Shown: one piece after another, positions 576 through 25,496 of the stretch
How the letters are laid out: every line of letters starts with the position of its first letter
Numbering within the stretch: position 1 is the first letter of the stretch
DNA from: Ilumatobacteraceae bacterium
Lineage (GTDB): Bacteria > Actinomycetota > Acidimicrobiia > Acidimicrobiales > Ilumatobacteraceae
DNA length: 64,000 bases
NCBI GenBank assembly: GCA_021299715.1
Contig: JAJTEL010000004.1
Location: forward strand, 1 to 64,000
Direction: 5' to 3'
The notes under the pieces: generated by a model
Seen by the model: the letters and a program-made list of their open reading frames with translations, nothing else
Databases searched by the model: none
Told to the model about the DNA's origin: nothing
Program-made: the position numbers and the translations under genes

Positions 576-1694
576 ATGAGCGATTCACATTGGATCAACA
601 CCCCACCCCAAGTTCCTTCCAAACGACCTGTTGGTGCCCGTATTGCGGCACTTGTGCTTGTTCTTGTCATTGCTTTTGGTGGCGGACTCGCCGGCGGTCT
701 CGTTGGGTCGTCCTTGTCGGACACCACAAGTTCGGCTGGTAACTCACCATTAGTCACCGCCGCACCCGTGAAGTCTGGCGACATTGGTGACACCAACGTG
801 GCGAAAGCGGCAGAAGTCATTGCTCCGAGCGTGGTCACCATTGACAGCGTGTCATCCACTGGCGAAGCAGTGGGCACCGGAATCATTGTCACGTCAGATG
901 GCGAAATTCTGACAAACAACCATGTTGTTGAAGGTTCTAAGACTGCGCGTGTTCGTTTGTATGGCTCAACAGCTCCTATTACAGCCGACGTTCTCGCAAC
1001 AGACCCCAGTAACGACCTCGCACTCATCAAACTGCGCAACACCACGGGGTTAGTGGCGGCAACTTTTGCCGATCCAGATTCCATTGCGGTGGGCGACCCC
1101 GTTGTTGCAGTCGGATATGCGCTTGCGCTTGATGGTGGGCCAAGTGTGACATCAGGAATCATTTCTGCACTCAACCGAACATTGCAGTTAGACGATGACA
1201 CATTCTTGAATGCACTTATCCAAACCGACGCTGCAATTTCATCGGGTAACTCTGGCGGACCACTTATCAACATGAATGGTCAAGTTGTTGGTGTGAACAC
1301 CGCTGTTGCAACGGGTGGAATGTCTAGTTCTGCAAACAATATTGGTTTTGCCATCAGCGTCGCAGAAGTTCAGCGAGTGTCAAAGATTCTCAGCGAAATT
1401 GCCAATGGTGGTTCTCGCCGTCAAGGTTTCTTGGGTATCAGTCTCGGAGATCGCACTGACGGTGGCGCTGGGGCAGTGATTGGCGAAGTGGAACCCAACT
1501 CTCCGGCAGACAAAGCTGGTGTGAATGTAAATGACATTGTGCTCACCATTAACGAACAACCCATCGTTGGTGATGAAGCGCTGGTTGCCATTATTCGTGA
1601 CTCGGCTCCAGGTGAGACCATCACCATCGTTGTTGAACGCGACGGAAAGCAAGTCACCTTGAATGCAACGTTGGTTGCGCGTCAACAAGACTAA
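576..1694 (+). CDS. Membrane-anchored HtrA/DegP-family serine protease with PDZ domain
   Basis: A 372-residue trypsin-like protease. Residues about 22-44 form one hydrophobic membrane anchor, so the enzyme should face the outside. The catalytic triad is visible: His116 in LTNNHVV, Asp147 in DPSNDLALIKL and Ser226 in SSGNSGGPL. Residues about 284-370 form a C-terminal PDZ domain (GFLGISLGD, PADKAGVNVNDIV). The family degrades misfolded envelope proteins. The start is the ATG at 576, with no clear Shine-Dalgarno; GATACT lies six bases upstream, so it may be leaderless. It lies between rpsJ and rplC, a foreign position for such a gene. Confidence 0.93.
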   Translation: MSDSHWINTPPQVPSKRPVGARIAALVLVLVIAFGGGLAGGLVGSSLSDTTSSAGNSPLVTAAPVKSGDIGDTNVAKAAEVIAPSVVTIDSVSSTGEAVGTGIIVTSDGEILTNNHVVEGSKTARVRLYGSTAPITADVLATDPSNDLALIKLRNTTGLVAATFADPDSIAVGDPVVAVGYALALDGGPSVTSGIISALNRTLQLDDDTFLNALIQTDAAISSGNSGGPLINMNGQVVGVNTAVATGGMSSSANNIGFAISVAEVQRVSKILSEIANGGSRRQGFLGISLGDRTDGGAGAVIGEVEPNSPADKAGVNVNDIVLTINEQPIVGDEALVAIIRDSAPGETITIVVERDGKQVTLNATLVARQQD

Positions 1695-20371: not shown

Positions 20372-21703
20372 ATGCTTCACTTCGGTACCGACGGTGTCCG
20401 TGGAGTCGCTCTCGACGAACTCACTCCTGCACTTTCGCGTGACCTTGCGCGCGCCGTTGTACGTGTGCTGCAACCAACTGCGGTTGTTGTGGGCAGAGAT
20501 ACGCGCGAAAGCGGAAGCGTTCTGCAGCAAGCAATTGTTGATGGTTGTGCTGCAGAAGGCACCCCAGTCCACCTATTGGGTGTTGCCCCTACACCTGCGG
20601 TTGCGTTTGCTGCTGAACGTCACGAGTGGGTTGGAATTGCGGTGACTGCGTCGCACAACCCATGGACAGATAACGGCATCAAAGTGTTTGCGTCCGGCGG
20701 TTCCAAATTAGGCGATGCGGATCAAATTGAAATTGAACGCGTCTGGCACGCGCTGATTGCGGAACCAGCGCCTGTTGCGCTGGGAACAGAACACGATGCG
20801 TCATCGGTGATTGAGGAATACAGCGCACATCGTCTGAATATTGTTGGTGCGTCGTTACAGGGTCTTGTAGTGGTGTTGGATAACGCCAATGGTGCAATGT
20901 CTTATGTTGCACCACAGGTATTCCAGGCCGCCGGAGCAACCGTGGTGTCGATGAACGACCAACCAAACGGTCACAACATTAACGATGCATGTGGGGCTAC
21001 TCACGTAGATGGTCTCATCGCGCGCGTATTGCACGAACGTGCCGACATCGGGATTGCTTTTGATGGCGACGGAGATCGCCTCATGGCGGTGACCGCATCT
21101 GGAATGGTGGTCGATGGCGATTACATCATGGCTATTGCTGCTGCAGACCTTGTGCAACGTGGGCTATTGCGAAACAAAGGACTCGCCGTCACTGTCATGA
21201 CCAATGTTGGTTTCCATCGCGCAATGGATGAACTTGGAATAGATGTCGTGGTGACGCCGGTCGGAGACCGCAGCGTGTTGTCGGCGTTAGAAGAGTACGA
21301 CTTCGTTCTCGGTGGAGAACAAAGTGGTCACATTATTCACCGTGCTCACGCAACAACGGGAGACGGATTAGTCGCCGCTCTCATCTTGTGCGAGTACCTC
21401 GTGCGTACGCAATCGTCACTCGATGAAGCGGCCACCATCATGCAGTCGTATCCACAAGTGTTGGTCAATGTACGAACCGAAGAAAAAGTGCACGATCCAG
21501 TTGCAGACATTGCAGTAGCAATTAAGGCAGTTGAGGAGTCGCTCGGTGATTCAGGACGCGTTCTTGTTCGTCCGTCGGGTACCGAACCTTTGGTGCGTGT
21601 CATGGTGGAAGCAGTGGACGAAGAAGTGGCAAAGACCACGGCTTTGCACCTCGCTGCTGCACTTATTGCCGTACACGGTGGCGCAATTGAGGGTGCGCAC
21701 TAG
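20372..21703 (+). CDS. glmM: Phosphoglucosamine mutase
   Basis: A 443-residue enzyme converting glucosamine-6-phosphate to glucosamine-1-phosphate for UDP-GlcNAc and cell wall synthesis. It starts LHFGTDGVRG. The phosphorylated serine is Ser94 in TASHNPWTDNG, the Mg loop is DGDGDRLMAV, the sugar loop is GGEQSGHII, and the phosphate-binding loop near the end is RPSGTEPLVRVM. AAGGAAC precedes the ATG. The GlmS-like gene lies directly downstream. Confidence 0.97.
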   Translation: MLHFGTDGVRGVALDELTPALSRDLARAVVRVLQPTAVVVGRDTRESGSVLQQAIVDGCAAEGTPVHLLGVAPTPAVAFAAERHEWVGIAVTASHNPWTDNGIKVFASGGSKLGDADQIEIERVWHALIAEPAPVALGTEHDASSVIEEYSAHRLNIVGASLQGLVVVLDNANGAMSYVAPQVFQAAGATVVSMNDQPNGHNINDACGATHVDGLIARVLHERADIGIAFDGDGDRLMAVTASGMVVDGDYIMAIAAADLVQRGLLRNKGLAVTVMTNVGFHRAMDELGIDVVVTPVGDRSVLSALEEYDFVLGGEQSGHIIHRAHATTGDGLVAALILCEYLVRTQSSLDEAATIMQSYPQVLVNVRTEEKVHDPVADIAVAIKAVEESLGDSGRVLVRPSGTEPLVRVMVEAVDEEVAKTTALHLAAALIAVHGGAIEGAH

Positions 21704-21733: not shown

Positions 21734-24700
21734 ATGTGCGGAATTATCGGAATCCTCCCCAAGCCAGGAACCCGTACCGCGCCATCCAGCGCTGACATTC
21801 TTCAGTTGCTCGATGTGGCCGTTGCTGCCGGAACCACACTTCGAGATGTGGCCGATGCGCTCATGGCAGCAGATCAATTGTTGCGGGGTGACGCAGGCAT
21901 TCAGGCACTTGCCGGAAATCTGTCGTTGGCGTCCGACATTGTGTCTCGACTCGACCTCATCGACGCCATGGCCGATGCAGAAGAGCGTCGCATCGACGCC
22001 CTGCACGCCGACACGGTCACTCTTGATGCTCAAGCGTCTGCGTTGTCACGCGTGAAAGATGCGTCCTGGGCATTACGACGAGATCGTTTACGTACAGCCG
22101 ACGCAGTGCATGCACTCGCTGGGCGCAACGCATCAGTGTCGTCACTTGCGGGTTATCTCAGCATTCAGCAGGCACTGTCGGCAATTGACCGTATGGAAGT
22201 TCGTGGTCGTGACTCGGCAGGTATCAGTGTTCTTGTCACCGTTCCATCTCTCCCCACCGAACTTACTCTGGCTATTACCGAACGTTCGTCAGATCCGTTA
22301 TTCACCGACAAGAGTGTTCGTCTCTCCGGAAACACTGTTGTGTTTGTGTACAAAGCAGCCGCAGAAATTGGAGAACTAGGTGACAACACGCGCCACATGC
22401 GCGAGTCACTTGCAAGTGACGATGTGTTGCGCCGCGTGCTGGCAATAGATGGTGCTCGCACATCGGTGTTAGGTCACACACGGTGGGCGAGTGTGGGAAT
22501 CATCTCTGAACCCAACGCCCACCCAGTAAATGGCGAAGAAGTTTCTGCTGCGCAAGATTTGGTGTCGGTTGCGGTTCTCAACGGGGATGTTGACAATCAC
22601 GCAGACCTGAAGGCACGCCACAATTTGCGTTTTGCCGATCCCATCACAACAGATGCAAAGGTCATTCCTGCTTTGGTCGACCGTGGTCGTTCGTCTGGTT
22701 CAACAACCTTGCAAGCATTCTTGAACGCTGTCACACAATTCGAAGGCTCTGTGGCAATCGGATATTGCGCAGCCGACGAACCAGACAACATGTACTTGGC
22801 GTTGTACGGAAGTGGTCAAGGCTTATATGTGGGCTTGGCAGAAGATCGCTTCATCGTTGCCAGCGAACCGTACGGAACCGTAGAAGAGACTGTTCATTTC
22901 ATTCGTCTCGATGGCGAAACTCCGTTGGTCGCAGATCAGCCATCAACACGTGGTCAAGTTGTTCAGCTCTTGGGTAATGCTGCTGGCACTCTCGATGGTG
23001 TGCGTATGTTCTCGTATGACGGCACACCAATTCCATTGACCCAAGATGTTGTTGCTACCGCTGAAGTCACTACTCGCGATATCGACCGCGGCGACTCCCC
23101 GCATTTCTTGTTGAAAGAAATTGGTGAAGCGCCACGCAGTTTCCGTAAGACAATTCGTGGCCGCACCGACGAAATCGGGGGGCTTCTGGTGCCCGATCTC
23201 GACGAGCTAACACTTCCGCAGGCAGTTCGTGATCGTTTGACTAATGGTTCCATCACGCGCATTCGTGTGATTGGTCAGGGAACAGCTGCAGTTGCCGGCA
23301 CCTCACTTGTTCCTGTTCTCACCTCTTTGCTTGGTTCTTCCATTCACGTGGAAGCTCTGACAGCAACGGAACTGTCTGGTTTTGCAATGGAAACTGACAT
23401 GTCTGACATGTTGGTCATTGCTGTAAGCCAAAGCGGAACTACCACCGATACCAATCGAACTGTCGACCTTGTTGCGTCGCGTGGTGCAGCAGTCTTGGCC
23501 ATCGTGAACCGACGGGGTAGCGAATTGGCAAGCAAAGCACATGGTGTGTACTACACATCCGACGGCCGCGATGTTGAAATGAGCGTTGCAAGTACCAAGG
23601 CGTTTTATGCACAAGTTGCGGCCGGCGCAATTTTGTCATGCGCCATTGCTCAAGCAACTGGTCACGTTGATGCAGATCGCATGCATCGCATTCTGTCGTC
23701 GTTGTTGTCAATGCCCGAAGCAATGCAGGCTGTCATTGCACAACGTTCTGAAATTGGAGCCATCGCTCGACGTTTTGCTCCCGCACGGCGTTACTGGGCA
23801 GTAGTTGGTAATGGCCCTAATACTGTTGCGGCGCACGAAGTGCGAATCAAATTGTCAGAACTGTGTTACAAGTCCATCTCGTGTGATGTCACCGAAGACA
23901 AGAAGCACATCGACTTGTCGTGCGAACCAATGATTCTTGTGTGCGCTGCGGGACTGTCCGACGGTACTGCCACCGACGTGGCCAAAGAAGTTGCCATCTT
24001 TAAGGCACACAAGGCCATTCCCATTGTCATTGCCACCGAAGGTGAAACGCGTTTCGAATCTGCAGCTGCCGTTATTGCCGTTCCAGAGTCAGACCCTGCA
24101 ATCGCATTTGTGCTGTCGTCAATGGCTGGGCATCTCTTCGGGTACGAAGCAGCTCTCGCCATCGATGAACTCGCTCGACCATTGCGCCAATTGCGCGAAG
24201 TAGTGGAAGTCATTGTTGGGCGCGGCGGCACAGGTGACGATGCATTGCGCCGAATAGAACGAGACATTGTGTCGGTTGCCCAGCATTTCTATTCCGCATT
24301 GCATACGGGCCAATACGACGGCAATCTCGAAGCATCAACTGCAGTGCGCATTGTGTCGTTGTTGCGTATCGTCACCGGGCCACACCCTCTACAGGCATAT
24401 CAACGCGAAACAGGTCGTGTGTCATCTCCTGCTGTGTTGTTGGACGACTTGTTGGCAGCACTCACTCGCGGAATCGATGAACTCACGCGCCCCATCGACG
24501 CCATTAAGCATCAAGCAAAAACTGTCACCGTTGGAATTTCCCGCAGCGAAGAAGGCTTGCTCGATCGCGCGCTTGTTCGTGCCGTTGTCGACGCTGGTGC
24601 TGCGCGCGAACAATTGCCATACGAAACACTGAAGGTTCTTGCTGCGCTTGACCCCGCTGTTGAGTCGGTGAACGGATTCACGCGATACTCCATTGAAGGA

Positions 24701-25126
24701 GACCCACAATCAGGAACCGCCACTATTTCCATTGTTGAACGGGGTGGCATCGCACTGCAGTTGTCGTCTCGTGTGGACGGTAATTCGCACTTGGTGGGAA
24801 CCAAGCGTCGAGTTGCAGCGGAACAAGAATTGTTGGTGGCACGTGGCCGCAAAGATGGCCGAACTGTCATTTTGGTTCCCGAAGTGAAAGGTTCCGAAAC
24901 AGTTGGCATCACCTTGTTGCACGTTTCGTTCCGTGACTCTGTTGCTCCTGCAATTGCACGACAAGTACTGCAAGGGTACGACCGCCGTTACGACCGCCTT
25001 GTTGACTGGGTAACGGAAACAGAAGGTGCATTCCGTGACGACCGTCTGGGTGAAGTATCTATTGCCGACTTGCTCATCCTTCCCGTTTCCGAAAGCGCCA
25101 ACCTGTGGCGCTCAGATTCGCAGTAA
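21734..25126 (+). CDS. Giant GlmS-like glutamine amidotransferase/SIS-domain protein
   Basis: An 1130-residue protein; ordinary GlmS has about 610. It opens MCGIIGIL with the class II amidotransferase nucleophile Cys2. The next amidotransferase motif, RGRDSAG, comes only near residue 157, so about 130 helical residues are inserted. GHTRWASVG (247-255) and LNGDVDNH (282-289) complete the glutaminase. Two SIS domains follow: SQSGTTTDT (566-574) and VASTKAF (618-624), then one from about 685. The GELKHGP segment of GlmS is replaced by TEDKKHIDL, and the terminal GlmS lysine loop is not conserved. Residues 830-1130 are an extra domain I do not recognise. It follows glmM, which favours a role in amino-sugar synthesis, but the isomerase activity is uncertain. 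Confidence 0.8.
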   Translation: MCGIIGILPKPGTRTAPSSADILQLLDVAVAAGTTLRDVADALMAADQLLRGDAGIQALAGNLSLASDIVSRLDLIDAMADAEERRIDALHADTVTLDAQASALSRVKDASWALRRDRLRTADAVHALAGRNASVSSLAGYLSIQQALSAIDRMEVRGRDSAGISVLVTVPSLPTELTLAITERSSDPLFTDKSVRLSGNTVVFVYKAAAEIGELGDNTRHMRESLASDDVLRRVLAIDGARTSVLGHTRWASVGIISEPNAHPVNGEEVSAAQDLVSVAVLNGDVDNHADLKARHNLRFADPITTDAKVIPALVDRGRSSGSTTLQAFLNAVTQFEGSVAIGYCAADEPDNMYLALYGSGQGLYVGLAEDRFIVASEPYGTVEETVHFIRLDGETPLVADQPSTRGQVVQLLGNAAGTLDGVRMFSYDGTPIPLTQDVVATAEVTTRDIDRGDSPHFLLKEIGEAPRSFRKTIRGRTDEIGGLLVPDLDELTLPQAVRDRLTNGSITRIRVIGQGTAAVAGTSLVPVLTSLLGSSIHVEALTATELSGFAMETDMSDMLVIAVSQSGTTTDTNRTVDLVASRGAAVLAIVNRRGSELASKAHGVYYTSDGRDVEMSVASTKAFYAQVAAGAILSCAIAQATGHVDADRMHRILSSLLSMPEAMQAVIAQRSEIGAIARRFAPARRYWAVVGNGPNTVAAHEVRIKLSELCYKSISCDVTEDKKHIDLSCEPMILVCAAGLSDGTATDVAKEVAIFKAHKAIPIVIATEGETRFESAAAVIAVPESDPAIAFVLSSMAGHLFGYEAALAIDELARPLRQLREVVEVIVGRGGTGDDALRRIERDIVSVAQHFYSALHTGQYDGNLEASTAVRIVSLLRIVTGPHPLQAYQRETGRVSSPAVLLDDLLAALTRGIDELTRPIDAIKHQAKTVTVGISRSEEGLLDRALVRAVVDAGAAREQLPYETLKVLAALDPAVESVNGFTRYSIEGDPQSGTATISIVERGGIALQLSSRVDGNSHLVGTKRRVAAEQELLVARGRKDGRTVILVPEVKGSETVGITLLHVSFRDSVAPAIARQVLQGYDRRYDRLVDWVTETEGAFRDDRLGEVSIADLLILPVSESANLWRSDSQ

Positions 25127-25130
25127 CGCA

Positions 25131-25496
25131 ATGAAGGGCATTGGCATCGACGCAGTCGAGATTGAAAGGTTTCGCAAAATGTTGGAGCGTCGTCCCAACA
25201 TGCGTGCGCGTCTTTTCACAGAAGACGAATTGCAGTCGTTAGCCAGCCAATCAGATGACGCGGCATCACTTGCTGCACGCTTCGCTGTTCGTGAAGCAAC
25301 CATGAAGGCACTTGGCGTGGGTCTTGGTGCGTTCGATTTTCACGATGTCTCGGTGTACAAAGATCCTTCTGGAGCGCCACTTCTGAAAGTGTCGGGTCGT
25401 GCGGAGGAACTGGCGCGTTCATGCGGAGTGGGGGCATGGCATGTGTCCATTACTCATACCGAAACAGTGGCAATGGCCGTTGTTGCTGCGTTATAG
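25131..25496 (+). CDS. acpS: Holo-[acyl-carrier-protein] synthase
   Basis: A 121-residue phosphopantetheinyl transferase that activates acyl carrier protein with CoA. The first motif is GIGIDAVEIERF (metal-binding Asp) and the second is ARFAVREATMKALG, where the family usually has Lys rather than Arg before the Glu. The C-terminal ISITHTE-like motif is VSITHTETVAMAVV. The start at 25131 is four bases after the upstream stop; a longer reading from 25026 has no similarity at its front. Confidence 0.93.
   Translation: MKGIGIDAVEIERFRKMLERRPNMRARLFTEDELQSLASQSDDAASLAARFAVREATMKALGVGLGAFDFHDVSVYKDPSGAPLLKVSGRAEELARSCGVGAWHVSITHTETVAMAVVAAL

Follow-up and report, generated by a model that had tools for sequence, protein, structure and literature searches.

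A divergent, widespread long-form GlmS subfamily in the place of ordinary GlmS in about half of Acidimicrobiia, with a putative C-terminal sensor domain

The stretch of DNA analyzed here (the window, 64,000 nucleotides) comes from an Ilumatobacteraceae bacterium of the class Acidimicrobiia, order Acidimicrobiales (GCA_021299715.1, contig JAJTEL010000004.1, forward strand, positions 1-64,000). As summarized in Table 1, it encodes a long-form glutamine:fructose-6-phosphate amidotransferase (GlmS) between glmM and an acpS-like gene. Peptidoglycan synthesis is entered through GlmS, a classic drug target. The open reading frame starts with ATG, and its product begins with MCGII.

Table 1. Features of the long-form glmS locus in the window, with the evidence for each.
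Feature	Position (nt)	Strand	Basis
glmM, phosphoglucosamine mutase, next pathway step	20372..21703	+	ORF; conserved neighbor
Long-form GlmS, 1130 aa	21734..25126	+	ORF, Pfam, NCBIfam, structure model, Foldseek
Residues 1-9, first Ntn glutaminase strand, nucleophile Cys2 (MCGII)	21734..21760	+	C2 in 84/84; modeled strand 3-9
Residues 10-145, helical insertion from Cys2 to the RG.DSAG helix	21761..22168	+	Alignment, model, conservation 0.53
Residues 146-440, remainder of glutaminase domain	22169..23053	+	Pfam GATase_6 243-378; residue mapping
Residues 496-650, SIS domain 1, phosphate loop SQSGTTTDT 565-573	23219..23683	+	Pfam SIS 509-632; S565, Q566, S567, T570 invariant
Residues 685-812, SIS domain 2, K706, E709, EDKKHID loop (H725)	23786..24169	+	Alignment and model
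Residues 813-918, helical insertion from SIS2 to the terminal lysine loop	24170..24487	+	Modeled helices
Residues 919-937 (RPIDAIKHQAKTVTVGISR), proposed displaced GlmS C-tail loop, K929 proposed as E. coli K603	24488..24544	+	Conservation, shuffles, MAFFT and hhalign pairing
Residues 938-1130, extra C-terminal alpha/beta domain, GAF/PAS-like, putative sensor	24545..25123	+	Model (pLDDT 90), Foldseek
acpS-like downstream neighbor, start inferred at an internal ATG	25131..25496	+	ORF; conserved neighbor

The protein exceeded the Pfam cut-offs for both GATase_6 and SIS, and its closest PDB relatives by sequence were E. coli GlmS chains. The NCBIfam glmS model TIGR01135 matched residues 243-809 with 223.8 bits, far short of its cut-off of 418 bits, and we therefore file the long form as a separate subfamily working like GlmS rather than as a TIGR01135 member. 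Recognizable glutaminase motifs are RGRDSAG (157-163), HTRWA (248-252), NGDVDN (283-288) and TTDAKV (305-310). In E. coli, the RG.DSAG motif occupies residues ~27-33; its position here indicates that ~130 extra residues follow Cys2. A further 318 residues remain C-terminal to SIS2, which ends at about residue 812. The original prediction, an insertion after the catalytic cysteine and an extension beyond the second SIS domain, was thus borne out, with ~130 and ~320 extra residues, respectively. Helices were modeled in the N-terminal insertion at 19-32, 36-49, 52-59, 63-89 and 94-129, and after SIS2 at 792-829, 835-857, 867-880, 885-893 and 899-922. The N-terminal insertion is the least conserved part of the protein, yet R14, L50, G52, G55, D109, D117, R118 and V125 within it are invariant.

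Full-length homologues, at 44-82% identity, were found throughout the class and also in further lineages of its phylum. Among 61 relatives searched, nearly every member of the genus and of the family encoded one, as did most members of the order, and 80 further long-form loci were recovered from the genome collection. Altogether, 77 non-identical full-length homologues (1110-1152 aa) could be aligned end to end. Mean majority-residue conservation was 0.53 for the N-terminal insertion, 0.74 for the GATase/SIS core, 0.63 for residues 813-918, 0.97 for 919-937 and 0.72 for 938-1130. Conservation of the extensions throughout this alignment indicates that they are genuine rather than a local oddity. 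That the long form is a frameshift, fusion or assembly artefact, as the few members that are split or carry an in-frame stop (G046, G275) might suggest, has next to no probability given that dozens of independent assemblies encode full-length homologues in which the catalytic and terminal-loop residues are invariant; conservation excludes the frameshift or assembly error for which the original prediction had allowed. In the two-contig genome G046 (C1:1179743-1183184), the long GlmS is encoded by two overlapping frames, covering residues 1-730 and 728-1128, which could reflect a frameshift or a genuine split into two subunits.

Catalytic residues were mapped by alignment with GlmS of E. coli and ordinary GlmS of the class, extended to 84 long forms. 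Equivalents of the glutaminase residues Cys1, Arg73, Trp74, Asn98, Gly99 and Asp123 (C2, R250, W251, N283, G284 and D307 in the long form) were invariant in 84/84 sequences. Likewise invariant were the isomerase equivalents of Ser347, Gln348, Ser349, Thr352, V399, Ser401, Lys485, Glu488, His504 and Lys603, including S565, Q566, S567, T570, E709 and H725 of the long form, while the equivalents of T302 and A400 each deviated in one sequence of the 84. Three of these, Glu488, His504 and Lys603, have been identified as catalytic in the isomerase (PMC9272926). The Pfam matches and the invariance of these positions confirm that the glutaminase and SIS motifs are kept, as had been predicted. Several observations nevertheless count against assignment as GlmS. 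In addition to the TIGR01135 score short of its cut-off, the sugar-phosphate-site residue Ser303 is replaced by Ala518 in all members, the Cys300 equivalent is Gln515, and the GELKHGP loop reads EDKKHID, retaining the His504 equivalent and losing the Gly and Pro. Substitution of Ser303 in the phosphate site, alteration of the GELKHGP loop and a core identity with ordinary GlmS of only ~27% (hhalign) would fit a GlmS-related amidotransferase that makes a different amino sugar phosphate, with glucosamine-6-phosphate coming from elsewhere. The distribution of the two forms among genomes bears on this alternative.

A search for a normal glmS, proposed with the original prediction, found no second GlmS in the genome of the window (G000, 92.8% complete). 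Its second match was a 527-aa frame with the glutaminase half only, which appears to be PurF-like, and NagB was not found in this 92.8% complete assembly. We surveyed 246 genomes of the class, each 90% complete or better, with the glmS model and a profile of residues 815-1130. The long form alone was present in 109 and ordinary ~610-aa GlmS alone in 131 (including two with GlmS as split fragments), while none contained both and 6 contained neither. Fisher's test of this mutual exclusion returned P 2e-63, a value that is too small as the genomes are related. Since kinship inflates the test, family purity is the sounder statement: 25 families were all long, 25 were all ordinary and 0 were mixed. 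Both forms share the slot rpsI-glmM-[glmS]-acpS-nnr-alr. All 46 long loci spanning 12 kb or more showed this order, with nnr undetected in 11, and so did the ordinary-GlmS loci within the limits of their flanks. The gene occupies the position expected of glmS, beside glmM, as originally predicted. A quick GlmM tree required at least 5 changes between the forms, at least 3 of them forced by well-supported branches, which, with the caution due to a single-gene tree, suggests repeated exchange of GlmS forms at one slot. A tblastn search of plasmids returned no match.

Outside the class, the long form was found in families f69, f96 and f99 of other classes and in one genome, G328, of family f76 in another class. 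Ordinary GlmS was not detected in the tested long-form genomes of f69, f96 and f99, while G328 carries both forms together; the long gene is not adjacent to glmM in f99 or in G328. At the G328 locus (L187, G328:C313), the long GlmS adjoins a gene for a GH38-type glycosidase (GH38 mannosidase), and ordinary GlmS occupies the glmM-acpS slot. G328 is rated 5% contaminated, and its two contigs are similar in GC (0.74 and 0.75). The GH38 neighborhood leaves room for a side role of the long form in G328, and coexistence with ordinary GlmS beside a glycosidase lends some support to a different sugar product. Such a product is unlikely, however, in view of the strict exclusion of ordinary GlmS across 246 genomes, use of the same slot next to glmM, lack of a detected NagB in G000 and invariance of the catalytic residues in 84 homologues. 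Without a glucosamine-6-phosphate synthase, long-form genomes would have no entry to the pathway, and the suggestion of a different amino sugar in the original prediction is accordingly not sustained. Taken together, the mutual exclusion, the shared slot and the lack of any other detected GlmS or NagB in G000 indicate that the long form is almost certainly the working GlmS of the cell.

GlmU in the same genomes also varies in length. In the order of the window, it mostly stops at about position 344 of 452 in the model, in frames of ~360-420 aa (e.g. G021:C14:4593-5648), and is thus without the acetyltransferase end, alongside either GlmS form. In other orders of the class GlmU is mostly full-length, and families f29, f30 and f32 had no clear GlmU. 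No GlmU exceeded the cut-off in G000 (best 53 bits), while its congeners G021 and G031 have a truncated GlmU; its absence from G000 may reflect assembly incompleteness (92.8%). We considered and rejected the idea that the GlmS extension compensates for a truncated GlmU, because truncated GlmU accompanies both GlmS forms in the order and most long-form families elsewhere keep a full GlmU.

In the E. coli enzyme, the loop bearing Lys603 reads AKSVTVE; class relatives have AKTVTVE. The proposed long-form counterpart is AKTVTVG (928-934), in which K929 is invariant (84/84), and the 14-residue window 924-937 has a conservation of 0.997, the second highest of the whole protein. Shuffles of the C-terminal region produced a 6/7 match to AKTVTVE in 3/20000 cases, and the weaker 5/7 match to the E. 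coli AKSVTVE in 214/20000. The pairing was obtained by MAFFT alignment and by hhalign, the latter weakly (P 0.006), and the loop is unplaced in the structure model (pLDDT ~35). Most likely, the terminal lysine loop survives as AKTVTVG, displaced by a helical insertion of ~105 residues and followed by ~195 more, and K929 would be the functional counterpart of K603, reaching the sugar site; both statements draw on sequence comparison. The original prediction had described both the isomerase and terminal lysine loops as altered, which stands for the change of GELKHGP to EDKKHID with its histidine kept, while "displaced" appears the more fitting term for the lysine loop. Tandem duplication of residues 805-825 (AIDELARPLR) into 905-925 (GIDELTRPID) was rejected as the origin of the lysine loop, since the hhalign match (P 0.008, 14 columns) is too weak.

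The full-length structure model, built with 58 sequences, had a pLDDT of 86 and a pTM of 0.74. Its best PDB fold match was E. coli GlmS 2j6h (E 8e-29, TM 0.78 by target), followed by human GFAT-1. Only four stretches fell below a pLDDT of 50 (252-255, 615-618, 712-726 and 920-940). All are within or adjacent to conserved active-site loops, and low confidence would be expected for active-site or subunit-spanning loops in a monomer modeled without ligand or partner subunit. Structure prediction had been suggested for the unassigned segments, and it returned helices for 10-145 and 792-922 and a confident alpha/beta domain for 938-1130 (pLDDT ~90), with the order beta1-beta2-alpha-beta3-beta4-beta5-alpha. 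By sequence, the C-terminal region is as unrecognized as originally predicted: profile comparison of residues 815-1130 with the PDB gave chance matches only, and this region had no Pfam match, GAF or PAS included, in the protein of the window and none that was consistent among 58 members. In Foldseek, the top matches to 938-1130 were weak (best E 1.4e-3, TM ~0.4 by target) and comprised the large glutamate dehydrogenase 7jsr along with a number of GAF and PAS domains, and the polar or charged positions R958, R984, Y985, K1024, D1041 and R1043 are invariant.

These features suggest that residues 938-1130 may form a metabolite-sensing regulatory domain. We tentatively propose a metabolite-gated GlmS, in which the GAF/PAS-like domain would sense a cell-wall or nitrogen metabolite and move the helical arm bearing the lysine loop. 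It is also plausible that the long form is a working GlmS whose extras are structural rather than sensory, serving oligomer assembly, sealing of the ammonia channel or a scaffold for GlmM. A structural role would fit the added sequence, which consists mostly of long helices of the kind that could mediate oligomer contacts, as well as the weakness of the resemblance to GAF/PAS domains and the lack of an identifiable ligand motif. In contrast, the C-terminal domain (0.72) is about as conserved as the catalytic core (0.74), and its number of invariant polar or charged residues seems higher than a scaffold would require. A regulated GlmS, as originally predicted, is still the best reading; its regulatory part comes from the weak GAF/PAS-like fold match.

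We conclude that the long form is a divergent, widespread GlmS subfamily. To the explanation as a whole, namely that the long form is the sole GlmS of the cell and that its subfamily replaces ordinary GlmS, with the displaced K929 and the sensory C-terminal domain as its inferred parts, we assign a probability of roughly 0.8; the architecture, the retained catalytic residues, the mutual exclusion and the common slot are the steps with direct sequence evidence. In such an enzyme, glutamine would be hydrolyzed at Cys2 and the ammonia channeled to the SIS-type isomerase half, which would convert fructose-6-phosphate to glucosamine-6-phosphate and supply it to the adjacent GlmM. The helical insertion of ~135 residues would directly follow the nucleophile strand, and the Schiff-base lysine loop would be borne on the ~105-residue helical arm between SIS2 and the loop. 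The C-terminal alpha/beta domain would bind a small molecule and tune activity through this lysine-loop arm.

If correct, this proposal implies direct allosteric control of a bacterial GlmS, an enzyme usually described as controlled at the RNA level. The long form would provide a natural, testable example of the rewiring of an essential enzyme, in which an inserted arm apparently carries the lysine loop, followed by what may be a sensor domain. Curated glmS models overlook it in nearly half of the class genomes sampled (109/246). Our literature search returned no description of the long-form subfamily, although public annotation may already list individual members as GlmS or SIS proteins; matches for "GlmS" with Acidimicrobiia apparently concerned statistical models (GLMs).

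The long form shares with E. coli GlmS and TIGR01135 the order of Ntn glutaminase, two SIS domains and a putative terminal lysine loop, the catalytic residues, the slot next to glmM and the fold (TM 0.78, 2j6h). It differs from the E. coli enzyme (~609 aa) in its length of 1130 aa, two helical insertions, an extra C-terminal domain, the S303A substitution and a lysine loop that appears displaced by ~105 residues, away from the C-terminus. Eukaryotic GFAT-1 has the same reaction core and likewise has enlarged glutaminase loops, and its direct allosteric control by UDP-GlcNAc offers an analogy for the regulation proposed here. In contrast to the long form, with which it shares ~19% identity in the fold match, GFAT-1 is without a C-terminal sensor domain, and its UDP-GlcNAc site lies in the isomerase domain and linker (PMC7000685). 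Control has been described at the RNA level for bacterial GlmS and by UDP-GlcNAc for eukaryotic GFAT (PMC9272926); against this background, a bacterial GlmS with its own sensor would be new. Residues 938-1130 share a helix-flanked beta1-beta2-alpha-beta3-beta4-beta5 topology with GAF/PAS domains (3e0y, 3eea, fRMsr 3ksf and the sensory part of the large glutamate dehydrogenase 7jsr), albeit with no sequence match and at the modest Foldseek scores given above.
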